Origin: an uncultured Caryophanales bacterium
Lineage (GTDB): Bacteria > Bacillota_I > Bacilli_A > RFN20 > CAG-449
Length of the DNA: 64,000 nucleotides
Direction of reading: 5' to 3'
Assembly: GCA_945873815.1 (NCBI GenBank)
Contig: CAMCEE010000005.1
Span: 1-64,000, forward strand
Shown here: positions 36,311 to 64,000 of the stretch, piece after piece
Layout of the letters: every line of letters starts with the position of its first letter
Position numbering within the stretch: position 1 is the first letter of the stretch
Made by a program: the position numbers and the translations under genes
The notes under the pieces: model-generated
The model's database searches: none
What the model was told of the DNA's origin: nothing
The model's input: the letters and a program-made list of their open reading frames with translations, nothing else

Positions 36311-36318
36311 TTTCGATG

Positions 36319-36348
36319 AATCCACGTTGCTTTTCGTGGATTTTTTTT
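36319..36348 (+). terminator. Terminator of the heat-shock operon
   Basis: AATCCACG (36319–36326) and CGTGGATT (36335–36342) form the stem, followed by T-run. Confidence 0.85.
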
Positions 36349-36480: not shown

Positions 36481-36509
36481 TTGGAAATCTATACAATATA
36501 TTGTATAAT
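36481..36509 (+). promoter_or_regulatory. Promoter of the giant surface-system operon
   Basis: TTGGAA (36481–36486), a 17-nt spacer and TATAAT (36504–36509). The -10 box lies inside the palindrome at 36490–36507. The first gene starts 45 nt further on, behind TAGGGG. Confidence 0.65.
36490..36507. promoter_or_regulatory. 18-bp perfect palindrome overlapping the promoter (candidate operator)
   Basis: TATACAATA followed by its exact reverse complement TATTGTATA, covering the spacer and part of the -10 box. AT-rich palindromes can arise by chance, but the shared arm with the site at 36347–36368 argues for an operator. Confidence 0.5.
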
Positions 36510-36553
36510 TGTGATATAGATATATTCAGAAATCTTTATAGGGGTATAAGATT

Positions 36554-39500
36554 ATGTTAAAACATGAAAAAATAATTAGAAGAATGTCATTAAAAGACAA
36601 AATAACTTTTTTGTTTAGTAGTTTGAAATTTAGAAATTCAGAATTAGAAGATTTTGAATTTCCACTTTTTAATATTTCAGATGAAGTTTCTTTTGTTAAT
36701 AAGGACCAAACAAAACTTGTTTTATCAAATAAAGCAATTGCAAGTACATGGAATAAAAATACATTTAACGATGTTTATATGCAAGTTTCGAAAAATTTAC
36801 TTACAAATGGAATTCTTCAAATTTTCAGTATTGATGGTAATGTTCAAAATAATAATATTTCTGAAGACTTTTTCTTGAACTTACAACTTCAAAAAGAAGG
36901 AATTAAAGTATTAAGAAAAAATAAAAGTTTAACTTGTTTATCCCTTATCGATTACAAACCTGACTTAAATAAAGATTTCGAAACATCATCTTCTATTTTT
37001 GAATCAATATTTAAATCTACTGGAGTAGATGCTGTTCTAGTTTCAACAGTTGATGATTATAAAGATGTCAAAAACAAAGTGAATTTTGATGGATATTTTT
37101 TCGGTTATACTAATTCAATTAAAGAAGCAATTAAATTTTTAAATGCTGGTAGTGTTGTTACTTTTATTGATGATATCGACGAAGAAGATCTTCAAAGAGA
37201 AATCGTTCAAGCGATGAATGAGTATGCATATAGTTCAAAAGGCTTAAAGGATGAAATGATTACTAAGGAAACCTTCAAGATGAGAATTGATGAAGGAGAG
37301 ATCACTTCGATTGATATTATTGATAAAGCATGTAATCAACTTATTGAATTGTTCGTTGAATTATCAAGAAGAAATGGTGATGATTGCATCAATAATAACG
37401 TTAGCAGTTTTACATCATTCAACAAACATGTTGCACTTGAAGATTGTGCAGAACAATCAGTCATTCTTCTTAAAAATGATGAATCTATTCTTCCTTTAAA
37501 ACATAAAACTAGAGTTGCGATTCTAGGTGATGCAATCAATCAAAACTATAGTACCTTTGCAAAAGAGAAGAATCCTCTTGATTATATTAAAAAATGCGAA
37601 GAATTAGTTTCTATTGGTTACGCCCAAGGATATATGCTTAACCATCCTACTGATGCTATTTTAGTTAATGATGCATATAATTTAGCAATTTCTGCAGATG
37701 TATCAATCGTTTATCTTTCAATTGATAAAAATGGACGTGTACCTGCAAATCAATTAACTTTACTTAACACTTTGAAGAAAAATGGAATTAAAATTATCGG
37801 TGTATTAAATAATCCAGAAACTAAAGATTTCAGTTACGTAGATTATTGCGATGCAGCTATTTTCTCATATTATGAACGTAATTCAAATGCAAAAGCGGTT
37901 CTTGATGTAATCATTGGAGAAATTAATCCTTCTGGTAAATTAGTTGAAACCGTATTAGTTGGTGAAAAACCTAATGATGGAGAGATTGTACCTCTTTATT
38001 CTCGTAACCTAGAATACAAATTTCCATTTGGCTATGGCTTAAGTTATACATCTTTTGAATATTCTAATCTTGAAGTTGATGAAAAAGGTGTTAGGTTTAC
38101 TGTAATGAATATTGGTAATAGCGCAGGATATACAACTCCTCAATTATATATTCAATGCAAGGATTCTAAACATGCGTTAAGAAATAAACTTTTAAGAGGC
38201 TTTGATAAGGTTTATTTAAGAAAAGGTGAAGCAACAAAAGTTTTCATTCCATTTACTGAAAATACTTTCAGATATTATAATGCTGAAAAGAAATTATATG
38301 GAGTAGAAAAAGGGGAATATCATATTTCTATTGGTGAATCCTATGCAGATACTAAATTAGAAAAGAACATTTTCTTAGAGGATTATCTATATGGCGATGA
38401 AACTTATAGAAGTATTAGAGATGTTAATTTTAACAATGTTGATAATCAATATGAAGAATTTATGGAAATTAATGATGGAAGTGAAATCGTTATTAAAGAT
38501 AAATTTTCTAAGAAAACTAGACTCGCAATTACTGGTGCAGTAGCAGCATTATTTGTTCTATGTGATGTTTTTGTACTTGTAAGTTATTGGATTTCCTTTG
38601 GATTAAAACTTGATGCTTTTTCTAGTGTGATGCTCGTTCTTATCCTTTTAATTCTTTTACTTGCAACTGTTTTTGTTGTATATTTCGTTAAGCAAAAAGA
38701 AGTCATTGTCAATGATGATGTGAATGGTACTCTTACAGAAATTGTGGAAGAAGTTAATGAGTTCTATACCGAAACTAAAGAGGTATATGCAACTTATGTT
38801 CCTCCAGTTGAAGAAGAGGAAATTGTTAAAGAAATTTCTGAAAATCCAGAATATGAAGAAACAGTCGAACAAGAAACAAAAGAAGAAATCGAAAGAAAGT
38901 ATGTTGCAAATTACGAATCGAAAGATACTTCTATTACATTTAATGATTATAATTCAATTGAGGAATTATGTTCTCAATTTATGACATATACTCGATCAAA
39001 GGGTGTTGCAATTGAAATCGAATCTGCAAGAAGATTATGGAGTGCTGTTCTATCTTCAAAACTTGTATTTTTATCTTCTAACGACAATGAATTATTAAAC
39101 GTCGTTATTCAATGTTTGATTGAATATTTAGGCTCAAATACATTCATTCAAGAAGCATCGAATAGATGGAAGAAAACTAAAGATACTTTATGGAAGAAAA
39201 CTAGAGTTGAATTCTTACCAACTAATTTTGCTAATTCATTAAATAATGCATGTAATTCGAAGGAATGTTTGAATATTGTTCCTTTAGTTAATGTTAGAAT
39301 TGAGAATTTATTCTATTATTTTAACGATTTTATTGAAAATGCAAATAATCCATTATCAGAGATTAAGATTGAATTGAATGAGAATGAGACGATTATTCTT
39401 CCTAAAAATATCTGTTATATCTTAGTTCCTGCAGATCCTAGTTTCTATGATAATTTACCATATTATATCTCCAATATTTCATTTGAAGTTAATTTGATTC

Positions 39501-40363
39501 TTGAAAAGATTGAACCAGAAGAAGCAATGGATATTAAACATATTTCATATAAGAATTTACTTGAGATTATTTCAAGTGGAAAAGAAAAATTCTTTATGAG
39601 TGAAAGCAAATGGAAAAATTTCGATGAATTCGAAGATGCAGTTTCAAAAACCGATAATTTCGTTATTGGCAATAAAGCGACATTACAAATCGAAAGCTTC
39701 GTTTCTTGTTATTTAGAATGTGGTGGAGATGTCAATGACATTAATGATGTTATCTTTGTCACAAAGATTATTCCAATGATGAAATCTACTTCATTATATA
39801 AGAATGAAACAGGAGAAAAAGATCTTGTATCATTAATTCAAAATGTCTTTGAAAACGATGATATGACTTCAAGTATTAAAGCATGTAAGAGAATTGAGAT
39901 GGTTACTCCTTTTGAGGTACCAGATGAAAGCGACGAAAGCGAAGAAAACTATGAAGAAGCTAAAGAAGCACCAATTGATTTAGTAATTTCAAATGATGAT
40001 AAATTATCCATTGAAATAAGTAATGTAATTGATGATGGTACGAATGTAGAAAATAAAGAAACAACAGAAGACGTTGAAGTTATTGAAAATTCGATTATAG
40101 AAAATAAAGAGGAAGAAAAGATTTCTGAATTAGAAGAAATTAGTGAAGATACTCCAAAAGAAGAACCTGAATCTAATCAAGAAAAACCAAAAACAAAAAC
40201 GAAAAAAGAACCAAAGAAAACAACACGTAAATCAAAAAAGGATGTAGATACAAAAGATGATGATAAAAAAGTAGTTGAAGAAGCTAAGTTAGAAGAAGCA
40301 TCAAATATAGATAATTCTTCTATTATCGAAAAGAAAACTACAAATGAGGAGGGTGATGCATAA
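36554..40363 (+). CDS. Pseudo-GH3 domain fused by two membrane helices to a pseudo-AAA+ (McrB/MoxR-like) domain
   Basis: 1269 residues, no signal peptide. Residues 1–600 follow GH3 glycosidases: RMSLKDKITFL at the start, SVILLKNDESILPL (302–315), SGKLVETV (460–466) and FPFGYGLSYTSFEYS (490–504), then a FnIII-like end. The nucleophile site, normally VSDW after GFDG, reads FDGYFFGYT (178–186), so the Asp is lost. Membrane helices lie at about 657–681 and 688–711 with Lys on both outer sides, placing both large domains in the cytoplasm. Residues 800–1115 align with the AAA+ proteins encoded next (for example FVIGNKATLQIESFVSCYLECGG against LTFGNRIMKQIRVYVPVLVACGG, each read in pieces), but Walker A reads SSNDNELL and Walker B LVNVRI. 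The tail is acidic, then Lys-rich. Probably a structural or regulatory scaffold. Confidence 0.7.
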   Translation: MLKHEKIIRRMSLKDKITFLFSSLKFRNSELEDFEFPLFNISDEVSFVNKDQTKLVLSNKAIASTWNKNTFNDVYMQVSKNLLTNGILQIFSIDGNVQNNNISEDFFLNLQLQKEGIKVLRKNKSLTCLSLIDYKPDLNKDFETSSSIFESIFKSTGVDAVLVSTVDDYKDVKNKVNFDGYFFGYTNSIKEAIKFLNAGSVVTFIDDIDEEDLQREIVQAMNEYAYSSKGLKDEMITKETFKMRIDEGEITSIDIIDKACNQLIELFVELSRRNGDDCINNNVSSFTSFNKHVALEDCAEQSVILLKNDESILPLKHKTRVAILGDAINQNYSTFAKEKNPLDYIKKCEELVSIGYAQGYMLNHPTDAILVNDAYNLAISADVSIVYLSIDKNGRVPANQLTLLNTLKKNGIKIIGVLNNPETKDFSYVDYCDAAIFSYYERNSNAKAVLDVIIGEINPSGKLVETVLVGEKPNDGEIVPLYSRNLEYKFPFGYGLSYTSFEYSNLEVDEKGVRFTVMNIGNSAGYTTPQLYIQCKDSKHALRNKLLRGFDKVYLRKGEATKVFIPFTENTFRYYNAEKKLYGVEKGEYHISIGESYADTKLEKNIFLEDYLYGDETYRSIRDVNFNNVDNQYEEFMEINDGSEIVIKDKFSKKTRLAITGAVAALFVLCDVFVLVSYWISFGLKLDAFSSVMLVLILLILLLATVFVVYFVKQKEVIVNDDVNGTLTEIVEEVNEFYTETKEVYATYVPPVEEEEIVKEISENPEYEETVEQETKEEIERKYVANYESKDTSITFNDYNSIEELCSQFMTYTRSKGVAIEIESARRLWSAVLSSKLVFLSSNDNELLNVVIQCLIEYLGSNTFIQEASNRWKKTKDTLWKKTRVEFLPTNFANSLNNACNSKECLNIVPLVNVRIENLFYYFNDFIENANNPLSEIKIELNENETIILPKNICYILVPADPSFYDNLPYYISNISFEVNLILEKIEPEEAMDIKHISYKNLLEIISSGKEKFFMSESKWKNFDEFEDAVSKTDNFVIGNKATLQIESFVSCYLECGGDVNDINDVIFVTKIIPMMKSTSLYKNETGEKDLVSLIQNVFENDDMTSSIKACKRIEMVTPFEVPDESDESEENYEEAKEAPIDLVISNDDKLSIEISNVIDDGTNVENKETTEDVEVIENSIIENKEEEKISELEEISEDTPKEEPESNQEKPKTKTKKEPKKTTRKSKKDVDTKDDDKKVVEEAKLEEASNIDNSSIIEKKTTNEEGDA

Positions 40364-41850
40364 TGATTAATGCTTTAGAAGCATCTTCTCCAATTGAAAG
40401 AGTATTTGAAAACATTTGGGATACATTATCTAGTAGAACAGCAATCATATTTTATGTTGTTATTATCGCAATATGTGTTATTATCCTTATCTTTCAAATA
40501 TTAAAGGGTGAGCAAAAAAGAGAAGAAATCCTTACGTATAGAGATAAGAATTTAAAGGATATTGAAAAAGAAAATTTTGCTGAAGGATTTGCAAAAAAAG
40601 AAATGAATGATAATCCTTTTGGAACATCGAATAGTTCAATTGCTTCGACAATTATTTCTAGCGATTCATCGATAAGTATTAATAAAGCCTCATCAAGAGG
40701 AGATTTAGGATCAACTCATTCTAGTGATAGTGATGGAAATGAAGATGATATCATCAATAGTGAAGATGGCTCATCTAGATTCTATATGTTATCTCAAATC
40801 GATCAAAAAATGGAATTTAAAACTCCTGTTAAATATGATAAATCGATGAATTTAAAAGAGATTTGCGATGATTTTAGAAACTTCGCTTGCAATAGATTGA
40901 AACTCTATTACGATATTGAAGATATTAGAAGATTCATCGGTGGATTATCCGTTACAAAACTTATCATCCTTCAAGGTATGTCAGGTACTGGTAAAACTTC
41001 CTTAGCTTATGCTTTTGGTGAATATCTAGATAATAAAACAACCGTTATCCCTATTCAACCGATGTGGAAAGAAAGAACGGATTTAATTGGGTATTATAAT
41101 GAATTCACAAAGAAGTTCAATGAGACGACCTTATTATATAAGATGTATGAAGCTAATTATAATGATGATATTTATATTACCGTATTAGATGAAATGAATA
41201 TCGCAAGAGTTGAATACTATTTTGCAGAATTCCTATCACTTTTGGAATTACCAAATCCAGATGGAAGAAACCTCGATGTAGTTGCAGATAAATGGAGCAA
41301 TGATCCTAAGTTACTACGAGAAGGAAAATTGAGATTGCCGATCAATATGTGGTTTATTGGAACTGCGAATAACGATGACTCTACATTTGCAATTTCCGAT
41401 AAGGTATACGATAGAGCAATGGTATTAAATCTTGATAAGAAGGCAGTACCATTTGAAGCACCTTATGTAGAATCAAAGAGGATTTCATCAAGTTACTTAT
41501 ATCAATTGATGAATGATGCACAAAAGGAATATTCAATATCTGATCGTAATTTAAGAAGAATTAGGGAATTAGATAAATTCATGATCGAGAAATTCCATTT
41601 AACATTTGGTAACCGTATTATGAAACAAATTAGAGTATACGTTCCAGTGTTAGTCGCATGTGGAGGAACGGAATTAGAGGCAATCGATGATATACTTGCA
41701 AGAAAAGTATTTAGGAAATTGGAATCTAAGAATCCAGTATATGTAAAACAAATGGCAGAATCTGTATGTTCGTATCTAGATGAATTATTTGGAACAGATA
41801 AATTGCCATTATGTAAAGAAGTTATTAGGCTTATCGAACAAAATGTTTAA
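40363..41850 (+). CDS. Membrane-anchored McrB/MoxR-type AAA+ ATPase, copy 1
   Basis: 495 residues. One membrane helix at about 26–47, a Ser/Asp-rich linker (85–135), then the AAA+ domain: Walker A GMSGTGKT 205–212, Walker B VLDEMN 274–279, ARVEYYFAEFLSLLE, sensor 1 FIGTANNDDS near 331–340, and the Asp-Arg of VYDRAMVL (350–351). The DEMN-ARVEYYF pattern belongs to McrB-like AAA+ proteins that usually pair with DUF2357/McrC partners. All ATPase residues are intact. The start overlaps the previous stop (TAATG). From about residue 128 to the end the protein is identical to copy 2. Confidence 0.8.
   Translation: MINALEASSPIERVFENIWDTLSSRTAIIFYVVIIAICVIILIFQILKGEQKREEILTYRDKNLKDIEKENFAEGFAKKEMNDNPFGTSNSSIASTIISSDSSISINKASSRGDLGSTHSSDSDGNEDDIINSEDGSSRFYMLSQIDQKMEFKTPVKYDKSMNLKEICDDFRNFACNRLKLYYDIEDIRRFIGGLSVTKLIILQGMSGTGKTSLAYAFGEYLDNKTTVIPIQPMWKERTDLIGYYNEFTKKFNETTLLYKMYEANYNDDIYITVLDEMNIARVEYYFAEFLSLLELPNPDGRNLDVVADKWSNDPKLLREGKLRLPINMWFIGTANNDDSTFAISDKVYDRAMVLNLDKKAVPFEAPYVESKRISSSYLYQLMNDAQKEYSISDRNLRRIRELDKFMIEKFHLTFGNRIMKQIRVYVPVLVACGGTELEAIDDILARKVFRKLESKNPVYVKQMAESVCSYLDELFGTDKLPLCKEVIRLIEQNV
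40744..41846 (+). repeat. 1.1-kb near-identical direct repeat, copy 1
   Basis: Covers the AAA+ part of the first ATPase gene. By eye it differs from the copy at 44382–45484 at only four bases (40789, 41823, 41827, 41829), all silent. The offset is a constant 3638 nt. Confidence 0.95.
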
Positions 41851-41869
41851 TTAAAGAAAAGGAAAGACA

Positions 41870-43909
41870 ATGAACAAGATTGACGTTTACTACCGCGCGT
41901 TTAAATCATATCGTAAAGAAACTAAGGAGCGTAAAGACTGCCTTACTGATTTAAGTTTGATTAAAGAAGCGCAAGCTAAAAATGATATTCTTGAAGCAAC
42001 GAAGTATTTATGCATTGTTGATGAAGAGTGGGTCCAACGTATTGAGGTTGGTCTTACTTTTGTCGAGAAAGCTTTAGCTGAAGAACGTCAATTTATTCGT
42101 TCTGATGGAGAGATTGTTCCTATTGAGAAAGTAAAGAAGATTTCTCGTTCATCTGTTGAGCATCTTGCTCGTCATAGCAATATGATTACTCATGTTCCTG
42201 AAGAAGGTAATGATTTAGTTCCTGATAAGATCTATATGGTTGAGAAATTGTCAGATTATGCAGTATATGAAAATAGATTTTTATATATGTTATTATCGTA
42301 TTTACATGAATTTATCATGTATCGCTTAGAAAAAATCGAAAAAATATCTGCAACGTATGATAGTATATTGGAACTCAATAAGGATGTAACATTTAACAAT
42401 CAAAAAATCAAATATGAAGTAAAAATAACAGATCATCGAGAGAATAATCCATATTCGATTAAAGATGAAAAATCAGCTTTGATCATTCAAAGAATAAGAG
42501 ATTGTGATCAAATAATTAACTCGATGCTAAATACTGATTTAATGATTCAAGTTTCGAAATCTCCAATGATTAAACCACCAATAACAAAAACTAATGTTTT
42601 AAAAATGAACAATAATTTTAAAAATGCACTTGCCTTATATGATTATATTGCAGGTTATAGTGGTTTAGGATTTGAAACGGAAGAGGTAAAACGTGAATTC
42701 CATCCATTTAATGATTTTAATGCAAGTGAGATTGCTGAAGCTTTGAATTTAACATCTTTTATTTCCTATAAGATTGGTAACGAAATTGAGGATGTACTAA
42801 ATACTGCTTATGAGGAAGAAGAGGAAAGAAGACGACAACAAGAAGCACAAAAGATGGTTGATCGTATTAATAGAATTAAAAAGAAAGCACGTGAAAATGG
42901 GCAAACTTTAGAAGAATATATGCTTCTTCTTGAAGATCGTAATAAAATGCTTGAAAAAGATAGTCAAGAATTAATTCTTGCAAGAAATAAAGTGTTTGAA
43001 TTGAATAAAATTATTGATGATTTGAATCAAGAAAAAATTGAATTAAATCATCAAATAGCTGATTTAAATTTAGAAATTGCAGAAAAAGTAAAAGAGATTG
43101 ATCGTCTTAATCAAAAATATATCGATGATATGAAGGCTATTAAACTTCAACACGAAGAGGATATTAAAAATCTTAATAAAGAGCATGCGGATAAGATTGC
43201 AGAAATTCATAATTCGTATATAGAAAGAATTGATGAAATTAATGAAAATCATCAAATTGAAATCGATGAATTAAATTATAAGCATCAAGAAGAAGTCGAT
43301 GCACTTAATGATTCACATTATCGTGAACTAAATGATATGCGTGAAGAATATGAGAATGAGCGTTCACAATTGATTACTAATTACAGTTCTAGAATCGATC
43401 AATTAAATGATGATTTGCAAAAGAATATTCAAGAGCATAACGAAATGAAAACTTCATTAGAAAATAAGATTGATGATTTGAATTCAGCCTTGAAAGATAC
43501 AATTGATGAAAGAAAAGCTATCGTAAAAGAATATGAACAAAAACTCGTTGATTTTGAAAATAGCAGCAATGAGATTATAGAAGGAGAGAAACGTCGTAAT
43601 CGTATCTTACAAAGAGAAAAAGAGATGATGCGAGGCGAAATGAATGCGATGAGACTTCAAAATGGTAAAATTGAAGTTGGAAGTGAGTTCGCAACGCGTG
43701 AACGTTTCATGGAATTAGAAGAAGAGTTTGTCGCATTCAATGCTTTCTTTAAAGAACAATGGAAATATACTAAAAAAGAAATTAGAAAGATGATTCTTTG
43801 GGAAAGAAAGGAAAAGAAAAAGAAAATTAATAGTCCAATAGAAGAGATTATTCCTTCTACATCTAATGGAACTGAAGAGAATAATTCCGAATCTAATAGC
43901 GTTAATTAA
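41870..43909 (+). CDS. DUF2357-like protein with a long coiled coil and no nuclease domain
   Basis: 679 residues. The N-terminal ~300 residues contain SRSSVEHLARHSNMI and VYENRFLYMLLSYLHEFI (131–149), the YENRF pattern of DUF2357, the domain that couples McrB-type AAA+ proteins to McrC-like nucleases. Then an Arg/Glu-rich helix and a long coiled coil (about 305–610) with repeated D-x-L/N-x-x-I heptads, ending in a basic stretch and a Ser/Asn-rich tail. No PD-(D/E)XK residues are seen. It has no signal or membrane helix, so it is cytoplasmic and probably a rod-like partner of the AAA+ proteins on either side. The ATG follows AAAGGAAAG. The DUF2357 match is moderate. Confidence 0.6.
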   Translation: MNKIDVYYRAFKSYRKETKERKDCLTDLSLIKEAQAKNDILEATKYLCIVDEEWVQRIEVGLTFVEKALAEERQFIRSDGEIVPIEKVKKISRSSVEHLARHSNMITHVPEEGNDLVPDKIYMVEKLSDYAVYENRFLYMLLSYLHEFIMYRLEKIEKISATYDSILELNKDVTFNNQKIKYEVKITDHRENNPYSIKDEKSALIIQRIRDCDQIINSMLNTDLMIQVSKSPMIKPPITKTNVLKMNNNFKNALALYDYIAGYSGLGFETEEVKREFHPFNDFNASEIAEALNLTSFISYKIGNEIEDVLNTAYEEEEERRRQQEAQKMVDRINRIKKKARENGQTLEEYMLLLEDRNKMLEKDSQELILARNKVFELNKIIDDLNQEKIELNHQIADLNLEIAEKVKEIDRLNQKYIDDMKAIKLQHEEDIKNLNKEHADKIAEIHNSYIERIDEINENHQIEIDELNYKHQEEVDALNDSHYRELNDMREEYENERSQLITNYSSRIDQLNDDLQKNIQEHNEMKTSLENKIDDLNSALKDTIDERKAIVKEYEQKLVDFENSSNEIIEGEKRRNRILQREKEMMRGEMNAMRLQNGKIEVGSEFATRERFMELEEEFVAFNAFFKEQWKYTKKEIRKMILWERKEKKKKINSPIEEIIPSTSNGTEENNSESNSVN

Positions 43910-43928
43910 TGATTAGGGGGTGGAGATT

Positions 43929-45488: not shown

Positions 45489-45503
45489 AGAGGAGGAAAA
45501 AAC

Positions 45504-48959: not shown

Positions 48960-48989
48960 TAGATTATAAAAAAAAGAAAGGAGGATTCT

Positions 48990-54900: not shown

Positions 54901-57900
54901 ATTATATTAATGTTGTTTTAGAAGGGTTTATTGAATCAGAAAAAGATGAGGATTTTGCTATTAATCTACCTGTTCAATATTCTATTAATGGATTCAGTTG
55001 GAGCAATACAAATATTGGGTTTATACACGTTTCAAATTCAACTAGTGGAGCAGTTTATGACGAAACGAGCAACGGACATCCGATTTTCTATCGTGCAGAA
55101 TTTGATAATTATTACATTAATTATTCAAATGGCTCATATAATACTAGATACGTTAAGATTACTCCAAAAACATTAACTGATGTGACGGAGGATATTAATG
55201 TAACTTATGATTCATTAGAACATTCTATTTCCTTATCATTAACAGGTTTTGTTGTAGGAGCTAGTGAATATCTCGAGGCAAAAGTAGATAAGATTCGTTA
55301 TTATTACAACGATTCGATTCAATTGAATAATCCTAAATTCAAGAATGTTGGAGAATATGAAGTTAAATATGAACTAACATTTAAAAATGCGGATTATTAT
55401 CCACTTTCTGGAACTAAAACAATAATTATTACTCGCGCGGATGCTATTGACCAATCAATTGGTTTTGAAGATGTTTATAATGGCTCTGCACATGGAATTA
55501 GCGTTTACGCAGGATTATGTGGTGATGATGTTTTCAATTCATTAGCTACTATAAAATATTCATTAGTAGAAGATGGTGAATATACTTCAGAAAATATTAA
55601 ATTAATAAATCATACTCCTGATCCAGTTGTTGTTTACTATATCATTACGTTTGCAAACTATAATGATATTAGAGGCTTTAAAACAATCAATATTTTACAA
55701 AGAGATTTATTCGTTTATTCAAATAATGTAACTATTACTTATGGAGATAATCCAGAAGGTAATGGAATCTATTTTGGCAATGATCCAGAAAACCCAAATA
55801 AATCCGGATTCTTTGGTAGTGAAAATGAAAATACTGTTATTGATAGGAGTAATTTATCCTATTCATTCGACTATTCACAATTTGATGATGTAGGAACTTA
55901 CAAATTTAGAGCAAATGGTCTTTTACCAAAAGTTCCTGCAAAAGATAATTATAATTTCATTTATATCGATGCTGATTTAACTGTTAATAAAAAAGAGATT
56001 ACTGTAGATTGGGAAAATACAGTATTTACGTATAATGGATATACGCAATATCCAACTCCTATTGCAAGTGGCTTTGTAAATGGTGATTCATTTGATTTAG
56101 AAGCATATGTAAGTGAAGAAAGCTTATTACCTATAAGAGCTGGTAACTATATTGCTTTTGCAAGATTTAATAGCGAAGTAAAGAATTATAGTATTCCGAA
56201 TAATAATTCTGTTGATTTTGTTATAAATAAGCTTGCAATATCCTTAAAGCCAAATGAAACTATCAATCCATTAACTAATGTTTCAAAGATTTATGATGGA
56301 TTATGTTATGAATATGATGTTAACAACCCTGGTAATTATGAAATAAGTGATACAGAAAATGCAAAAATCGGTCATTCAAACGAAGATAAAATCACAATTT
56401 ATGTTAAATATTTATTAAATGATATAGAGATTAATGGTAATCCAAAAGATGTCGGAACATATAAGGTTGTTATCGATAGTTTTGTTGTTACTCATTTAGA
56501 AGGTGAAGATAATGTCGATTACACAGATTGTTATATCCTCAATCAATCTGCTGAAGTTCTTTATGTTATTGGTTGTTTAGATATCATTATTGAAGCTAAT
56601 AATATGGATGAATTTACTTTCGATGGTCAACAACATTATTATCCTTCAAATTCTAAAAATTATAATATTGTTCCTTCAATTGATTCTCAATTAGAAACAA
56701 GAATTGCAAATGAATTAGATTTCACAGTTTATGCTAAATTCATCCTCTCAGGAACTAGTGCTAAACTTGATTCTATAAGAAATGTAGGAACATATTCGAT
56801 TAAGATTGAATATGATAATCATTCTTCCAAAAATTTGAATATTAGATATTATGAGGAATCAACTGCTAGTGTGACAATTAATCCTAAAGAATATGAAATT
56901 GACCTAGAAGATAAGACAGTAACATATAATGGAAAGAAGTTCATTTATGAAGATATATTATTATTAGATGGCGATAAATTAGTCCTAAATGTTATATATA
57001 ATAAGATTAAGAATAGTAGTGGTATATCGGATAATCAAAATAATGTCGATGCGATAAATGCTGGTCTTTATGAAATGACATTATCCGAATCTAATAATTG
57101 GTATTCGTTGTCTCTTACTGAAAGATCAATTGTTGAAAACTATGAAATAAATCTTGTTTCTAGTTCAGTTAGTAAGCAATTAGTAATACAAAAGAGAGAT
57201 GTTTATATAATGACGGAATATCAAGATAGTGCGATTTATGATGGAAGTGAACATACTTATAAAGGATCATTTGTCTACTATGGTGATTCTGAAAATAACA
57301 TAAATAATCAATTCATCGAGGGAGAAATTCTTGAGCTCGCGGTTTTCATCAATAACGAAGATGGTAGTAGAGCACAACCTATCAATGCTGGAACTTATTA
57401 CGTAGTTATTGATAAGGATTCGACAAAAATAAAGGTTCAAGGACAAGAGGATAAGTTGTCAGTTCTTGAGAATTATGAAGTTCATAATGAATATTCTTCG
57501 AAATTTATTGTTAAAAAACGTAAAGTTGGACTTTTACCAATCGCTTATGATGATAAAATATATGACAATGAAACTTTAAGTGCATATCAAACAGGATATG
57601 GTAATTTTAGGTACGATAAAAATATATCTTCATTTGAATTAGTAGAAGGAGAAGAATTATCTGTTGTTGTTAATTTCTATCTAGATTTATCAATAGTTGA
57701 ACTTGAAAATGTCATAAACGCTGGAACATATTCTTATAATGTATCTGTTGATAGTATAAATAATCTCAATATGAATAATTATGAGTTCATTTGCAATAAT
57801 CTATCCTTGACCATTAGTAGGAGAACTGTTTATATTTCTCCTTTACAAATTGAATCTATTGAATATGATAGATTAGAACATCAATATTCTGATTATAAAG

Positions 57901-60900
57901 ATGATTCATATCAATATTATGGATTATCAGTATCAGATTCAAAATATCAAATTGCAAATGGAGAAACTTTATCTATCGTTGTCTTCTTTGGCGATAGTCT
58001 ATGTGTAGTAAACTCTGGAAGATATAACATGATTATCGATAATGATTCTTCTACTATTACGCGTGGAGAAAATGTCTATAATGCTTCAGTTAACTATAAT
58101 ATTGTTACATACACTGGAAACGAGTATGTCTTTGAAATTCGTCCTCGCGAATTAACAATTAGCGCAGTTAATAAAGAATCTGTTTATGATGGAAATGTTT
58201 ATGAATATGTAGCTTATACAAGCGAGAATATTACGACTGATTTTATAGTTAATGGATTAATTGAAGGCGATGAAGATAATATTTCTGTCATCAAATTTAT
58301 TTATAAACAAGGAGAGAATATTGTTAATCCAATAAATGTAGGAACATATGATATCGTGTTGGATGTTGATAATTGCGAAATATCTACCAACTATTCTTTA
58401 AAGATTGATCCAACTGAATCACCAACGTTAACTATCTTGAAACGTAAGATTACTATTTCGATTAAATCATTATCATACACTTATGTAAATAAGGTATATG
58501 ATTCAAGTTATAATGAATATGTAGTTTATTATACAGATGAACCTTCGTTAAGTGGATTTGTAAATGAAGATGATAAAAATGCATTCTCATTAATCAAATA
58601 TATTTATTCGGTTGATGATAAGGTAGTAGATCCTATTAATGCAGGAACTTATTCTATCTCTTTAGAGTATGAGTTCACTGATATAACGGTTAAAAATAAT
58701 TATGAAGTATATGAAATTATCGAAGGTCAATTATCAATTTTGAAACGTAAAGTTACCGTTATGCCAAAATTTGATGATGAAATTAAGACATATGATGGAC
58801 AAGCATACGTTTATCCAGTTGAAGAAGATAATTATATCCTTAAGGAAAATTCATTAGATGTATGTGAAGGTCATATCCTAACGATTAAAGTCGCGTTTGA
58901 TCATGCAGTTGCAACCGGTCTTTATAACGAAACAATTAATTTACATAAATTGTTTGGAAGTGAATGTTTCTATGATAAAGTTACTGAAGCAGCAACTTAT
59001 AAAGCAAGTGCATATATGTATCTAATTAATGGAAAAGAAAACGAAAATTATGAATTCCATTCTGAATATGTTGATTTCTCAATTCAAAAGAGAAATATTC
59101 TTCTATATAATGGTGACTTTGAATTTATCTATAATGGAAGTGAACAAAGTTTACACGATTTAGTTAACAAAGAGATTAATTATGTTAATAGCCCTATTGA
59201 TAATGAAGATACAGTTCAATTCTTATCATTATTACACTATAAGGTTTTTGTTGATACTAGTGAAGATATGGAAAAATTCATTGATGTAGCTTGGAATGAA
59301 GAGATAATGGGCGTTTCTTCATATGTTAACAATGCATACTTAAGATTATTTAAGGATGATATTGATCGTACATATAATTTTGAAGTAGAGATTGAAAAAG
59401 GATCTATTACAATTCTTCCTAAGGATGTTAATTTTATCATCGATGTTCCTGAAGAAGATGCAACTACTATATTTACTGGTTTAGCTTTTGAATTCTTTGA
59501 GGATAATTTCCGTATTGAAACATTATGCGATGGACAAATTTTGAAGATAAATTCATGGAATACTCTTGCGGAAGGTATTATTAGAACGGGAACATATTCG
59601 ATTAATGACATCGATTATACTTCAATTGAATTTGTCATTTTGAAAGATGATATACTTGTAAGTTGTTATAATTATACGATTAATTATGTAATGATTAGAG
59701 ATATTGTTATTAATAAAGCACATCTTGATTTCACGATTAATAATGCGCAAAAAGAATATTGTGGTGAAATAATTCCTATCAATGAATTCTTAAATCCAAT
59801 CAATGCGGAAGGAGCATTTGAATTAGAGAATAGTAAAATTTCAATTGAAGATAATGTACCAACGATTTTCTATTATTTTGATGATTCTAGTAATAGAGAT
59901 AGAGTATTTGAAATCAAGGATGCAGGTGTATATCAAGTTTCAATTTATTATTATGACTTAGTTATTTATGGTGAAACGAGAAATAGAGATTTCGATTTTG
60001 ATTACGATAATGGTAAACTTGAATTTGAAATCACGATAACTCAATACGATTTCAAACAAAAAATGAAGATTGTAACTGGTTCGAGTATTGTTCCATTTAT
60101 TTACGATATTAATAACGAGCAAGAAGCTTACTCTCGTGATTATAGTTGTAATTTAGATGAGGTATTTACTAATAAAGGATTTACGACGGATTATGCAGAA
60201 AAATTCTATATCAGAGATTACACTGTATATCGTCCAAAAGAAGAAGCTTTATTGAATACCTTACCAATCATCATCATTGATCCAGATGGAAATAATGTTA
60301 CTAGAAACTTCTTATGCTCAAAACAAAATGATTATGGAGAGTGGGTTATTGACTATGAATCACCAACGATAGTTGCAGAGGTTGGTTTGATCAATATTGA
60401 TTCAAAGATGACACTAATTTATGAAAATAAGGATAGCGCAAAAAAATATGACGGAAAGAATTTAGTTTTTGAAGGAAATTATATTGTTGGGCAACTATAC
60501 AATTCAGAATCCCAATTTTCGAATCTTTATTTCAAAGCGGAAATCCATAAGATACATTATCGTAGAGGTTCTATTTCATATGAATTAACTGGTAATCAAG
60601 GTATTTGTTTAGTGGGTGAATATATCGTCGTAGTGAAAAATATCCAAGCATATGTAAATTCAAATTATGTTATCAAGTTACCAGATGATTATTATATTAG
60701 TTATAATAATTATAAAGATGAAGAGGATGCAGTATATATTGAAGGTAATGATTCTTTATATGTATGTAAACTTAATATTGTTCAAAGAGATATTTACATT
60801 AAGCCAGTTGATTTAGTTGATGTATATTACGATGGAAATGTTATTGAAGCGACTGAATGGGAACCGGTAGGAGATGCAATTAACGATACGAGTAAGCAAG

Positions 60901-61730
60901 TCGTTCCAGGTCATACAATTGATATTGAAACAACAATCAAAATCGATCTTGAAAGCATCCATAATTACATTGTTAAAACAACCAAAAATACCATCGATGC
61001 TTCTAAAACGAAGATTTATGATGAAGATGGTAATGATGTAACATTCTGTTATAAGATTATATCTACTGCTACTGAAGGCAATAAAGCGGAAGCTTATAAA
61101 TATTATGGAAAGATTACTCTTGCAAAACGTTATATTGTCATTTTACCTCATGGTAATGTCGATTCTCCTCATATTTATGATGGAGAATACATCTACAATA
61201 CTGGATTTGATTACATTTCTCGATATCAAAATGCAACTGAAGTAAGCTCATTATGTACGGAAAGATCATATGGATTATTAGAAAATCATGTGATGATACC
61301 TTATGAAATGAGTCCATGTATTGCAAATGTTGGAACTAAATTCAACAAATTGGTATTCGATATTAGAGATGAAACGGGTGGAAGTGTTTCTTCGATATAT
61401 AAAATAGTATATCGTGATGATCCATCTGCATATTTAGTTGTTGCTCCAAGAGAAATAATAATTAGAACTGGAAGCAAATCAGTCTCATATTACGAAGGAA
61501 TGGAACCAGTAACATGCCATGAATTTACGGTAGAAAATTTGCTTGAAGGTCATTATATCGATGAAAATAAAATCGTATGGGAAGCTACCTTAGATAAACC
61601 AGGTAGAATTAATAATAGTATATCGATTAACTTATCTAAATCCAATAAGGCGATTTTAGACAAATATAATACAGTTGTTTCAACAAATTATACAATTAAA
61701 TATATTTACGGAAGCTTAATTGTTAGTTAA
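48990..61730 (+). CDS. Giant MBG/YDG-repeat surface protein (4246 residues)
   Basis: A Lys-rich N-terminus (to about 29), one membrane helix (about 30–48), then roughly 40 beta units counted by their YDG/YNG/YGE strand. Two unit types alternate in stretches: KVYDGTPI-like units with NAGTYYVxIDSF ends, and MBG_2-like units such as IQYGEEPSNDG with GFVNGEDxSVL and YDDVGxYxI. No LPXTG, no C-terminal anchor and no catalytic domain is seen; the last unit ends YIYGSLIVS. The topology is expected to be N-inside, repeats outside, anchored by the N-terminal helix. It is probably a long flexible fibre for attachment or cell–cell contact. The ATG follows AAAGGAGG. Confidence 0.8.
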   Translation: MSSYDSYVSKIEKIAKVKNFVVKHKIPFIVGAGIVAALTTSFVSTKGIIVQDIVLPDKIVYGSDFEFEKEAIGLFGSEIYYEYRLEGEDWSTQKPLKPGHYNVRAVSTNSFGGKIYGNEVSFEIGRKDITFVINDSIIPYGDYENISYSIYDGTPDDKDIYSKGLVGSDSIYTIDFEFEDTSKNSTMCRVEQESVTIINQDGNDVSALYKVHTVYKDITFAKRDIVLEPELVNKVYDGTPIEYNNEYTSSTAKDIAKGDTLTIYTSIEDKNGDELEELPIEAGSYLNSIDSFKIVNSKGDDVTVNYNIKYKPNYLVISKRDITIQAGSSERVYDGTTLSNYDYESIVSGSLVENEYIVYDSSKETEFPSMKDVYYVDGLVSSIENKIKYLITDGTKDKSKNYNITVLPGELKILPLELNITPLEQESFVYNGEKVEYSKEKNNFHEVNGVSLPEGVELNVKVYYELYDDLELFSPLDSVMDAGPYAINIKSYSIINDLESNYIINTMPTYFDIYKRDVTVSIINLDDCEYDGNGFAYDGLSYNITSPLGFVDGEKIKVIAKYSADGVNFSTSQPRNAGTYYVKLDSFEFMLNAKEKNYNITLLDTIEEFDILPRTISIYANSLPNAIYNKTIQDTYDKNSLLYDKGSKTIVTEDKFSVSVDYRYLDGNIEILQNPKNAGDYRIYISSINFEDEINAGNYNILYSKGKYGEYRIEPRSVYIKANDMESIIYDGNNHSEYDSTSYTLLNDTSFVEGDGVLVSPKFYLENKVDDANNVIEPRNAGTYYIFIDSFEYTNETMNGNYSVIINDLEGTGGIFTINKRKVTIKAVDVESSVYNGKIQDYYDINDYTYENDSLEIVDKATVSYRYINDENNDAITLNAYKYGILLNGISFEDENNLNNYIINYSTEKGWYEILKKDLLITSVDKEIIYGQEFVDKEVSYTGFVEGEDESVLNGTLSISTSYNKYDNVGSYPIISSGLMGDNYDITYEEGLLTVSKATLVNKTENLDIVYDGKEHFLTFEFDGLVSKNSDYPSDRIEELDQIINISLDGSSYSTEYEMFKNACEITTIYYILSFRNYKDINSSNTIKINKRDLTIKASDKTITFGEEFTLSEYEATGWAEGEDISVLEGKLSFVVNYNQFDDIDPSTDYKIYVEGCTSNNYNIEYVPGRLTILKATLTDASMNYEGTYDGNEHGILISAVGFLKGEIFSEVATIKYSLVEDGEYTSENIKLINHTPDPVVVYYIITFANYNDIRDFKTIKINKAILTVTPKEHTIQYGEEPSNDGLSFRGFVNDTEDESLLSISSAVYSYSYTKYDDVGDYEISVSNIPDTLNYHIVYEKGILHVIPRFVDVIWGSTTLTYNGKVQAPSASVVTCNEDECIVTLNIPSTNKDVNDNVGDPKYIAYAVSLSNPNYQLGENTSIEYIITKAQLDISPSEKRIEYGKDFDLSDVHLLFNGFVNNEDINVLDIVDVEDKFYTNYVKFAPVEDSLTHEEILYYIEIYDGWISAKNYSITFKTSRLYVSKAELIDESKGYEGVYDGCDHSITLKFSKFLNDDSEATQKQIVSYKLEGDTSYDLDNPMIKNYTGEEGIKVYYRVTFINYKTIESYKTVIIKQKSITITANDCSISYGSNAMNNGVRVNEDDLVVVNGIRETIEVHLNNLEGLSFTYFYNTFDNVGTYDIIPSGLSSLNNNYKFVYVNGKLNVVQKEIDVIWDENDSLSYNGLSQIINVSILGLVNSDTCDVLFSNNSYGIEVNSYTAKIIGISNDNYCLKPSQVTEKVYNIIKANLIIKANDVSITYGEDPESAFDMENGVTYEGFVNGEDQTVLSGTLVLSTIDYNRYDDVGTYKIIPSGLTSSNYEIVYKEGDFVVNQLEATISWSENDEFTYDGNEHCIEAVISNPVNGDECSLTIEGKKKNAGTYVATAIAIVGAKSKNYKLPSNVTASFTILKKELIDKTENLEFVYDGDNHYINVVLEGFIESEKDEDFAINLPVQYSINGFSWSNTNIGFIHVSNSTSGAVYDETSNGHPIFYRAEFDNYYINYSNGSYNTRYVKITPKTLTDVTEDINVTYDSLEHSISLSLTGFVVGASEYLEAKVDKIRYYYNDSIQLNNPKFKNVGEYEVKYELTFKNADYYPLSGTKTIIITRADAIDQSIGFEDVYNGSAHGISVYAGLCGDDVFNSLATIKYSLVEDGEYTSENIKLINHTPDPVVVYYIITFANYNDIRGFKTINILQRDLFVYSNNVTITYGDNPEGNGIYFGNDPENPNKSGFFGSENENTVIDRSNLSYSFDYSQFDDVGTYKFRANGLLPKVPAKDNYNFIYIDADLTVNKKEITVDWENTVFTYNGYTQYPTPIASGFVNGDSFDLEAYVSEESLLPIRAGNYIAFARFNSEVKNYSIPNNNSVDFVINKLAISLKPNETINPLTNVSKIYDGLCYEYDVNNPGNYEISDTENAKIGHSNEDKITIYVKYLLNDIEINGNPKDVGTYKVVIDSFVVTHLEGEDNVDYTDCYILNQSAEVLYVIGCLDIIIEANNMDEFTFDGQQHYYPSNSKNYNIVPSIDSQLETRIANELDFTVYAKFILSGTSAKLDSIRNVGTYSIKIEYDNHSSKNLNIRYYEESTASVTINPKEYEIDLEDKTVTYNGKKFIYEDILLLDGDKLVLNVIYNKIKNSSGISDNQNNVDAINAGLYEMTLSESNNWYSLSLTERSIVENYEINLVSSSVSKQLVIQKRDVYIMTEYQDSAIYDGSEHTYKGSFVYYGDSENNINNQFIEGEILELAVFINNEDGSRAQPINAGTYYVVIDKDSTKIKVQGQEDKLSVLENYEVHNEYSSKFIVKKRKVGLLPIAYDDKIYDNETLSAYQTGYGNFRYDKNISSFELVEGEELSVVVNFYLDLSIVELENVINAGTYSYNVSVDSINNLNMNNYEFICNNLSLTISRRTVYISPLQIESIEYDRLEHQYSDYKDDSYQYYGLSVSDSKYQIANGETLSIVVFFGDSLCVVNSGRYNMIIDNDSSTITRGENVYNASVNYNIVTYTGNEYVFEIRPRELTISAVNKESVYDGNVYEYVAYTSENITTDFIVNGLIEGDEDNISVIKFIYKQGENIVNPINVGTYDIVLDVDNCEISTNYSLKIDPTESPTLTILKRKITISIKSLSYTYVNKVYDSSYNEYVVYYTDEPSLSGFVNEDDKNAFSLIKYIYSVDDKVVDPINAGTYSISLEYEFTDITVKNNYEVYEIIEGQLSILKRKVTVMPKFDDEIKTYDGQAYVYPVEEDNYILKENSLDVCEGHILTIKVAFDHAVATGLYNETINLHKLFGSECFYDKVTEAATYKASAYMYLINGKENENYEFHSEYVDFSIQKRNILLYNGDFEFIYNGSEQSLHDLVNKEINYVNSPIDNEDTVQFLSLLHYKVFVDTSEDMEKFIDVAWNEEIMGVSSYVNNAYLRLFKDDIDRTYNFEVEIEKGSITILPKDVNFIIDVPEEDATTIFTGLAFEFFEDNFRIETLCDGQILKINSWNTLAEGIIRTGTYSINDIDYTSIEFVILKDDILVSCYNYTINYVMIRDIVINKAHLDFTINNAQKEYCGEIIPINEFLNPINAEGAFELENSKISIEDNVPTIFYYFDDSSNRDRVFEIKDAGVYQVSIYYYDLVIYGETRNRDFDFDYDNGKLEFEITITQYDFKQKMKIVTGSSIVPFIYDINNEQEAYSRDYSCNLDEVFTNKGFTTDYAEKFYIRDYTVYRPKEEALLNTLPIIIIDPDGNNVTRNFLCSKQNDYGEWVIDYESPTIVAEVGLINIDSKMTLIYENKDSAKKYDGKNLVFEGNYIVGQLYNSESQFSNLYFKAEIHKIHYRRGSISYELTGNQGICLVGEYIVVVKNIQAYVNSNYVIKLPDDYYISYNNYKDEEDAVYIEGNDSLYVCKLNIVQRDIYIKPVDLVDVYYDGNVIEATEWEPVGDAINDTSKQVVPGHTIDIETTIKIDLESIHNYIVKTTKNTIDASKTKIYDEDGNDVTFCYKIISTATEGNKAEAYKYYGKITLAKRYIVILPHGNVDSPHIYDGEYIYNTGFDYISRYQNATEVSSLCTERSYGLLENHVMIPYEMSPCIANVGTKFNKLVFDIRDETGGSVSSIYKIVYRDDPSAYLVVAPREIIIRTGSKSVSYYEGMEPVTCHEFTVENLLEGHYIDENKIVWEATLDKPGRINNSISINLSKSNKAILDKYNTVVSTNYTIKYIYGSLIVS
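52632..52765 (+). repeat. 134-bp internal DNA repeat in the giant gene, copy 1
   Basis: Encodes KYSLVEDGEYTSENIKLIN and onward to NYNDIRDFKT. It matches 55551–55684 with one base change (Asp to Gly), far closer than any other pair of units, so it is a recent duplication or gene conversion. Confidence 0.93.
55551..55684 (+). repeat. 134-bp internal DNA repeat in the giant gene, copy 2
   Basis: Second copy, 2919 nt downstream of the first, in the same reading frame and at the same place in its repeat unit. Confidence 0.93.
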
Positions 61731-61751
61731 AATAATAATAGGGGGTAGTGT

Positions 61752-62846
61752 ATGGTAAGAAAATATAGTACGTATTTAAAAGAAGGTTTTAAAACTTCTT
61801 CTACTACGATGAAAAGAAGAGGAAATAGATTGAAATTTCATCTATTCTATTTGATTAAGATTTTATCGATTATTTTTCCATTCTTTTTCCCAGTTGTTGC
61901 TTCAGCTGAGATAAGAATGTCTAAGAATTCGATTAAATATAATGATATAGGTGTATATGATTCGTTTAAAGAAGGAACTAAACCAAAGAAATATTGGAAT
62001 ATTCTTGTCGCATATTTACTTTCTTTCTTTACCATTTTTTCTGGACTAATTGTTATTTCACTTATCACTTCTTTGTTTGTACTTGTTGGAGTAGCAGTTG
62101 GTAGATTAAGCGATAATATGCCCAATCAATTTATTGCGTTAATATTTTCTATCCCTGGAATTGTATTTGCACTCATATTTGTCGTATTAATCCTTTTATA
62201 TTTTTCACCAATACCTTATATTTCAGAAACAATTTCTGATATTGAAGGATACTTAATCGTTAAAAAGAGTGTTGATTCGATGAAAAAGGGCAAATTGATT
62301 ATCCTTTTAAATACATTTATCATTTCCTTATTGATATTTATTATTGTTGGATTACCTTTATTATTCTTACCAATTGTAATGAGTTCATCTCCTTTTGTAT
62401 TAATTATTTACGCTATTATTGTTACTTTATTCATAATTGCAGTTTTGATATTTTCCCCTACAATATTTATGGGATTCATTAATGCAAATACACTTCTTTA
62501 TGAAGATATTGTTCTTGATGATATTAGTGAAAAGAAGACGGTTCGTGGAATTGTAATTTCTAAGAATAAACGTGATTTAAAGAATAATTTGCTTAATATC
62601 TTTAATCGTACTCAAGAAACGCATTTCACTACTAAAAATCATATTGATGATTTATCTAACGAATCATATGAAGAGGATGACTATGATGAGGAGGAAGATG
62701 AAGAATTCGAAAATGAATTAGCAAAAGAAGGCTATGATGAATTAGAAGAAATCGAAAAAGAATTAGCAAATATGGATTCTTTAGAAGAAGTAGAAGGTGA
62801 TGTCACCGAAGAAACTATAAAGAAAAATAGTGATGAGGTGAAATAA
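61752..62846 (+). CDS. Multi-pass membrane protein with an acidic cytoplasmic tail (weak DUF975 resemblance)
   Basis: 364 residues. A basic N-terminus (KRRGNRLKFH), then about five or six hydrophobic stretches (near 30–50, 82–116, 128–152, 181–209, 213–240). VKKSVDSMKKGKLIILLNTF recalls DUF975-type membrane proteins. From about 290 the chain is strongly acidic (EEDDYDEEEDEEFENE), probably cytoplasmic. No catalytic motif. It could be a membrane channel or assembly platform for the surface proteins, which is inference from position only. The ATG follows GGGGGTAG, 21 nt after the giant gene. Confidence 0.65.
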   Translation: MVRKYSTYLKEGFKTSSTTMKRRGNRLKFHLFYLIKILSIIFPFFFPVVASAEIRMSKNSIKYNDIGVYDSFKEGTKPKKYWNILVAYLLSFFTIFSGLIVISLITSLFVLVGVAVGRLSDNMPNQFIALIFSIPGIVFALIFVVLILLYFSPIPYISETISDIEGYLIVKKSVDSMKKGKLIILLNTFIISLLIFIIVGLPLLFLPIVMSSSPFVLIIYAIIVTLFIIAVLIFSPTIFMGFINANTLLYEDIVLDDISEKKTVRGIVISKNKRDLKNNLLNIFNRTQETHFTTKNHIDDLSNESYEEDDYDEEEDEEFENELAKEGYDELEEIEKELANMDSLEEVEGDVTEETIKKNSDEVK

Positions 62847-62847
62847 T

Positions 62848-63567
62848 ATGATTAGTTTACTTACATGGAGAGCATTTGCAATTGTTGCATTTATATTCTT
62901 TATTGCTTCAATTGTAGTACTAATAGTTACAAAATTACTAAAGAATAATTTTTATTATGATTATCGTGAAGATGAATTGATTAAAGAAACTAAGAGTATG
63001 AACTCTAATAATAGTCTTTATTTTACTTCTGATCCTTCGACATATCAATACATTAAGAAATACGTTTTATGTAAGACTGTTTCTGATAAATATTGCATTT
63101 GTCAATATGATAGAGAATTCAATAAGATTGTGTTCTTTATTATTCAATATTCTAAAAATAATAAAATAGTTGCGATTACAAAATGCAGCGAAATTAAGAA
63201 TAATGAGGCATCCAGAGTTATTCCTTTAAATAGAAAAACAGATAAGATTAATATCATTATTTCAAAAGTTGATAAGATGGAGATTAATTCTTCAGTTATA
63301 AAACCATTAAATAAAGTTAAAGTTCTTTTATATTGTCTATTAAAATTCGATTATAGCTTTACTGGATTATTTGTTCTTAGACATATTATAGTTGAATGTT
63401 TAGGACAATCATTTACTGCTTCATATTTTAATTCGATTTACAATTTAATTTCGATATTAGGTTGCTTATTATTTGGATTAATCGTTTCAATAGCATCATA
63501 CATTTCTTTGAAAAAGAGAAATCTTATTATGCATAGAGGAGGTGTAATTGAATATGAATTTATTTAA
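62848..63567 (+). CDS. Unknown membrane protein with an N-terminal and two C-terminal helices
   Basis: 239 residues: one helix at about 8–30, a soluble middle (35–165), and two helices near the end (about 172–190 and 203–225). The middle has two Cys-containing beta-like stretches (YVLCKTVSDKYCICQYD). I do not recognise a family. The ATG is 1 nt after the previous stop, behind GATGAGGTG, so it is translationally coupled. Confidence 0.6.
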   Translation: MISLLTWRAFAIVAFIFFIASIVVLIVTKLLKNNFYYDYREDELIKETKSMNSNNSLYFTSDPSTYQYIKKYVLCKTVSDKYCICQYDREFNKIVFFIIQYSKNNKIVAITKCSEIKNNEASRVIPLNRKTDKINIIISKVDKMEINSSVIKPLNKVKVLLYCLLKFDYSFTGLFVLRHIIVECLGQSFTASYFNSIYNLISILGCLLFGLIVSIASYISLKKRNLIMHRGGVIEYEFI

Positions 63568-64000
63568 TAACATCGAAAAGTTTTCTTATACGGAAGAAGA
63601 GAAAAAGTGTGTTTCTTTAGAAGAGTACATTATCTTTGAAGATGAGAGAAATCTTGAGAAATATATAGTATTCAAATTCAGAAACAATTTGCTTCAAAAT
63701 CTACATGAAATTCGATTTGAAGTTTCACAATATGATGAAAACAAAAATCTTGTTGAAAGAGCTTCTTTAGTTTATTCTGATTTTTCTGCTCAACCGGAGG
63801 AAATGTTTGTTCCTAAAGCAAAATTGAAAGCTAATTATCTTTGTAAGACGATTAGTGTTAGATTGATTTATGCAAAGTTTGATACGGCATATTTTGAAAA
63901 TGACAAATTGAGTTCAGCTACTTTCTCATTTGAAAAATATAACGAACAAATTAATCACGATAAAAAGAAAAATATGACGAAAAAAGAAATTCGTCAATTG
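63554..64000 (+). CDS. Partial unknown protein, cut by the window end
   Basis: 149 residues are visible from the ATG at 63554 (behind AGAGGAGG), overlapping the previous gene by 14 nt; no stop before the window ends. The visible part is soluble and mostly beta-like, with EEYIIFEDERNLEKYIVFKF and SFEKYNEQINHDKKKNMTKK. No motif is recognised. It continues the same operon. Confidence 0.65.
   Translation, partial: MNLFNNIEKFSYTEEEKKCVSLEEYIIFEDERNLEKYIVFKFRNNLLQNLHEIRFEVSQYDENKNLVERASLVYSDFSAQPEEMFVPKAKLKANYLCKTISVRLIYAKFDTAYFENDKLSSATFSFEKYNEQINHDKKKNMTKKEIRQL

Follow-up and report, generated by a model that had tools for sequence, protein, structure and literature searches.

Nuclease-less, membrane-anchored homologs of McrB with an NxD motif, fused to an FtsB-like transmembrane (TM) and coiled-coil region and associated with signal peptidases, have been named CoCoPALM, their study being deferred (Bell & Koonin 2024, PMC11090510). 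CoCoPALM is the nearest known system to the operon analyzed here, which lies in a 64,000-nt stretch of DNA, hereafter the window (G000:C5:1-64000), from the 1.80-Mb draft genome of an uncultured Caryophanales bacterium. Both have a McrB-like motor of the NxD type, with a TM segment at the N-terminus, and a DUF2357 partner with a coiled coil, both lack a nuclease, and both are tied to extracellular structures. TM helices were found in all AAA motors examined, and could correspond to the FtsB-like region of CoCoPALM. In contrast to CoCoPALM, no signal peptidase neighbors the window's operon or the operons of the same type (type A, defined below) that we examined; type A further differs in that two AAA genes flank one DUF2357 gene, accompanied by a dead AAA domain, two giant MBG proteins, and four or five membrane genes. 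Because the signal peptidase is missing, we do not file type A as CoCoPALM but regard it as an apparent sister system that would work in the same way. The initial annotation of this DNA had known of no named system with this gene set. The nuclease-less, membrane-anchored NxD-McrB/DUF2357 branch does carry a name (PMC11090510), but the form so named is linked to signal peptidases, not to MBG giants.

Other described systems share less with the locus. McrBC type IV restriction has the AAA+ fold and the pairing of an AAA with a DUF2357 protein in common with the operon, which, however, has no PD-(D/E)xK nuclease and no DNA-binding domain, carries NxD instead of NxxD, and has membrane anchors. CoCoNuTs share the NxD motor and coiled coils, but a nuclease is always found within or beside them (Bell & Koonin 2024, PMC11090510), whereas the operon has none. 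The TapA-SipW-TasA systems likewise form sortase-independent surface fibers, and SipW/TasA-type genes occur in the type B family (see below) of the window's order; MBG repeats, however, are not TasA. To our knowledge, the B. subtilis TapA-SipW-TasA operon contains no AAA/DUF2357 pair. Literature searches on SipW/TasA/McrB, on AAA proteins with giant surface proteins, and on PDC-M26 returned nothing on this gene set, and the paper on B. cereus TasA/CalY mentions no ATPase or AAA. On the evidence set out below, we think it somewhat probable that the operon, itself horizontally transferred, codes for a membrane-bound AAA+ machine that is dedicated to a pair of giant surface proteins.

Nine plus-strand genes inside the window and two past its end form one tight 11-gene unit, with gaps or overlaps of 1 to 30 nt between neighbors and GGAGG-like ribosome sites before most gene starts. 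The initial annotation had described this spacing and the strong ribosome sites correctly, and had the strand and positions right for every gene, but counted ten genes where the window holds nine. The upstream neighbor is the hrcA-grpE-dnaK-dnaJ cluster; downstream, past the window end, lie mgtE and then ATP synthase genes. A pattern scan places a terminator-like hairpin of nine pairs with a T run after dnaJ, between that cluster and the operon (36318-36343, plus strand), and a possible promoter, TTGGAA-17-TATAAT, matching at 10 of 12 positions, at 36481-36509 (plus strand). Because such hairpins are found at chance level and such promoter matches occur no more often than in shuffled sequence, the two sites are weak evidence, compatible with a separate transcription unit. 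Elsewhere in the window (15070-19626), a 1518-aa DUF4011/helicase/REase_MTES_1575 protein matches PADLOC PDC-S37 at 1387 bits and is likely a solo anti-phage candidate unrelated to the operon. Membrane topologies given below derive from hydropathy, and all compared genomes are metagenome-assembled (MAGs) or drafts.

The two motors, AAA-1 (40363-41850, plus strand) and AAA-2 (43920-45488, plus strand, with a GTG start or an ATG at 43929), match only AAA_5 in Pfam, with no modified-base-binding domain. Their TM helices are N-terminal, one in every AAA-1 and two in every AAA-2 across all operons, in keeping with the membrane anchoring originally proposed. Walker motifs are intact in both, and N336-x-D338 (NxD) is invariant across 26 aligned motors, with D or E next. 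Among PDB structures, sequence matches are to E. coli McrB only. By sequence, the motors fall within the nuclease-less NxD McrB-like branch.

The AAA-1 and AAA-2 motors of the window are identical over their last 371 aa. DNA identity between the two motor regions lies at 97-100% in 11 of 16 operons, compared with only 25-52% protein identity in the N-terminal anchor parts, and in a tree AAA-1 and AAA-2 pair by operon rather than by position, the G084/G091 operons being the exception. At the sequence level, the twin motors indicate concerted evolution, most simply by gene conversion; the simplest reason for keeping them identical would be that each has to fit into one shared ring and onto one shared partner. 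The duplication of McrB-like ATPases had been recognized from the start, and AAA_5 is indeed found in both, but this upkeep of identical motors had been missed. An assembly artifact was rejected as the source, as identical or near-identical copies also occur in genomes assembled in one or two contigs (G264, a single contig; G154; G062) and as the window's own two copies differ at five sites of the motor domain. Several short MAG contigs (L005, L008, L010-L013) nevertheless break within AAA motor genes, as expected of a repeat, and in the chimeric L014 a repeat-driven mis-assembly has joined AAA-2 to the start of DUF2357.

Between the motor genes lies the gene for the DUF2357 protein, D (41870-43909, plus strand). 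An alignment of 16 members and an AlphaFold2 (AF2) model divide it into a DUF2357 domain (residues 1-~300), a variable coiled coil of ~250 aa, and a conserved C-terminal helix ending K-K. Pfam DUF2357 matches the window's D at 2.7e-6, above the cut-off; 3 of the 16 members reach E 0.01, and family membership rests on Pfam at a modest score. A Foldseek search of the PDB with the AF2 model returned no McrC and no usable match. Pfam scans found no nuclease domain in any of the 16 D members, whose C-terminus is coiled coil and helix, no nuclease family in the core proteins, as the initial annotation had maintained, and no HEPN or other nuclease in the operon genes.

This last result bears on a different reading of the locus, as a membrane-bound anti-phage system descended from McrBC in which the giants act as shield or sensor. 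We keep it under consideration because the AAA matches PADLOC PDC-M26A, a candidate defense family (1.3e-44 overall, the best stretch covering only 314-430 of 724 profile positions). The relatives of the AAA are restriction systems, and the distribution described below is patchy and transferred. Against these points, the operon offers no nuclease or known effector and sits between housekeeping genes, not in a defense island; moreover, the giants are an invariant cargo and the sister family is tied to fiber and signal-peptidase genes. We regard a defense role as quite unlikely.

The first gene of the operon (36554-40363, plus strand) encodes protein X. It had been called GH3-like, and Pfam does find GH3_C and Fn3-like matches, but the expected nucleophile is absent and the protein ends in a dead AAA domain that had gone unnoticed. 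X consists of a cytoplasmic GH3-like domain (1-~610) with no signal peptide, TM helices at 658-676 and 694-712, and an AAA domain at 805-1125. Set against GH3 motifs, the nucleophile Asp has no counterpart in any of seven aligned relatives, the SDW position reading, by eye, FGYT, FVTD, FGIA, YGAA, and the like. The C-terminal domain (~320 residues) has lost both Walker A and Walker B and matches the active AAA family by HMM (E=1.1e-19). Its AF2 model (pLDDT 88.6) retrieves AAA modules of dynein, McrB, MCM, NorQ, and RavA in Foldseek at probability 1.00, with modest TM-scores of 0.33-0.51. On motifs and predicted structure, this domain is an AAA+ fold that is catalytically dead. A dead AAA stands directly upstream of AAA-1 in 15 operons (assigned in G062 and G381 from an iterated HMM search). 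It occurs alone, without GH3, in G145, G154, G264, G346, and others, and the GH3 part is therefore an addition. In genus g25 (G065, G084, G091), an LRR_5 protein takes its place.

Directly after AAA-2 come the two giants. M1 (1151 aa; 45504-48959, plus strand) has an N-terminal signal-anchor and at least eight MBG-type domains by repeat HMM and hydropathy. M2 (4246 aa; 48990-61730, plus strand) starts with a 25-aa basic cytoplasmic tail and one TM helix, followed by at least 17 detected MBG-type domains; its length would fit ~45. Pfam MBG_2 matches both proteins (1.2e-48 for M2), and the cytoplasmic tail and TM segment of M2 are conserved in a tail alignment. Both giants are predicted to be anchored N-terminally, with their repeats outside the cell. 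In several operons M1 contains a transglutaminase-like domain, as does M2 in G091 (L057 1775-5200, L058 12647-14440, L060, L180, L182; M2 as well in L060), possibly for cross-linking of surface proteins. Another giant surface protein appears elsewhere in the same genome as an ~8190-aa open frame with LRR_5-like and MBG-like parts (G000:C8:~16758-40000; L088, L089).

The giants are followed by a multi-pass membrane protein, TM364 (61752-62846, plus strand), a membrane protein, TM239 (62848-63567, plus strand), and LRR756, a membrane protein with an LRR_5 (BspA-type) region (Pfam 1.2e-19; 63548-64000 in the window, plus strand, running to 65818). TM364 has homologs in the same place in G003, G098, G099, G264, G293, and G346, and TM239 and LRR756 are likewise kept in place. 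Beyond the window lie a 1442-aa membrane protein, P1442 (G000:C5:65844-70172), and a Zn-ribbon membrane protein (G000:C5:70183-70620). P1442 was rejected as a marker of the system, as its homologs stand alone in family f27; some of these (L134-L146) adjoin, by eye, an apparent anaerobic ribonucleotide reductase gene.

The conserved tails could serve as handles for a ring that extracts misfolded or old giants from the membrane and disposes of them, and AAA+ membrane extractors are common. Such turnover or quality control nevertheless seems very unlikely to us: the operon contains no protease, and the dead subunit and the LRR and membrane partners would be left unexplained.

No sortase was detected in the window's genome, and LPXTG/sortase anchoring of the giants was rejected for that reason. 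PBP transpeptidases are present in the window's genome and other type A genomes, but none was detected in seven of them (G044, G062, G065, G084, G091, G264, and G381; 81-99% complete). On the strength of these seven genomes, a function in the wall only was rejected; type A being present in them, the apparatus seems able to do without a cell wall. Occurrence without transpeptidase, permanent anchoring at the N-terminus next to a conserved cytoplasmic tail, a long coiled coil, and LRR/TM partners would also agree with a ring that pulls on or reads tension from anchored fibers, in adhesion, gliding, or shape control, or that signals outside-in. Such force or signal coupling is, in our view, unlikely, given that no cytoskeletal or motility gene is linked and that no AAA motor known to us acts on surface fibers in such a way.

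When D, AAA-1, and an aligned set of D proteins served as queries, two sharply separate families emerged. Type A, in which AAA genes flank D (class-search scores above 280 bits), was found in 14 of 395 genomes of that search, in families f1, f4, f14, f16, f23, and f27, as well as in f5 and in the named MAG loci L005-L014; at least six families and some MAGs labeled Clostridia thus host it. M1 and M2 directly follow AAA-2 in all 18 such operons with enough contig, the window's included (G000, G003, G062, G065, two each in G084 and G091, G092, G098, G099, G101, G145, G154, G264, G293, G346, and G381); in a 19th, G044, the giants lie upstream of the core instead. The link between AAA+/DUF2357 and MBG genes, which the initial annotation had staked on conservation in relatives, is thus borne out: the giants adjoin the AAA-DUF2357-AAA core in 18 of 18 further operons with enough contig, in 17 of them directly after AAA-2. 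This conservation in 18 further operons rules out chance neighbors. The full order of dead AAA, AAA-1, D, AAA-2, M1, M2, TM364, TM239, and LRR recurs in G003, G098, G099, G264, G293, and G346, and the flanking genes differ between genomes. The genes for the dead AAA, AAA-1, DUF2357, AAA-2, M1, and M2 are inherited together.

The history of this set departs from that of its hosts. In DnaK, the congener G003 shares 83% identity with the window, against 67-75% in other genomes of the order and 57-61% in MAGs outside it, whereas D identity is 47% in G003, 47-51% in the Clostridia-labeled MAGs, and 28-31% in other genomes of the order. In the D tree, the window's family f1 groups with the Clostridia-labeled MAGs (97/93) and the window's order as a clade is rejected (p 0.006); in the DnaK tree, by contrast, the order forms one clade (100/100) and the grouping of f1 with those MAGs is rejected (p 1e-4). 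This conflict, seen in the presence of long branches, points to horizontal transfer, and the type A set appears to have moved between distant bacteria.

In type B, the sister family, one AAA accompanies D. SipW-type signal peptidase genes stand beside the core in 24 of 26 loci, MBG genes adjoin it in none of the 26, and SipW/TasA genes take the place of the MBG giants as partners. The window's genome has a type B locus of its own, an AAA/DUF2357 pair on another contig (L016 8759-13741, G000:C2), which together with most of 25 further loci fits the description of CoCoPALM. This pair is flanked by SipW signal peptidases and TasA-like genes (L016 7031-17832), followed, by eye, by GGDEF/EAL-like signaling proteins. 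In other SipW-type loci (L071-L078, L087), the genes that follow often encode a conserved membrane protein of ~520 aa and a protein of ~245 aa starting MILIIGSS-DDVLYYE.

For the machine dedicated to two giant surface proteins, we propose that AAA-1, AAA-2, and the dead AAA would form one mixed ring beneath the membrane, to which DUF2357 would bind as McrC binds McrB. The coiled coil and C-terminal helix of D may then couple DUF2357 to its target, with the ring recognizing the tails of M2 and M1, and NTP hydrolysis would drive a step in the making, placing, bundling, or removal of long Ig-like fibers. The initial annotation had put forward assembly, export, or tension of a giant surface fiber as the presumed task of the machine. 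The proposed ring would be the counterpart of the sortase or TasA/SipW of other bacteria, and the type B machine may do the same job on a different fiber, with SipW/TasA-type genes. It is possible, if somewhat doubtful, that this amounts to an AAA+-driven surface-fiber machine of a kind new to biology: a mixed ring in the membrane, with two identical motors on different anchors, a dead subunit, and a DUF2357 stalk, that handles giant anchored fibers from inside, in walled and apparently wall-less bacteria, and spreads as one cassette.

Identical motors kept on different anchors by gene conversion predict a mixed AAA ring, which a dead third subunit would fit. With two independent partner sets, MBG giants and SipW/TasA genes, the case can be tested, and CoCoPALM acquires a concrete, conserved cargo. 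For poorly known gut bacteria, the apparatus would offer a route to surface fibers independent of both sortase and wall. The recurrence of the set in distant bacteria and its apparent transfer suggest that a machine for building or working the cell surface has arisen from relatives of a DNA-defense motor, such that a lineage known for the cleavage of foreign DNA or RNA has apparently become envelope machinery.
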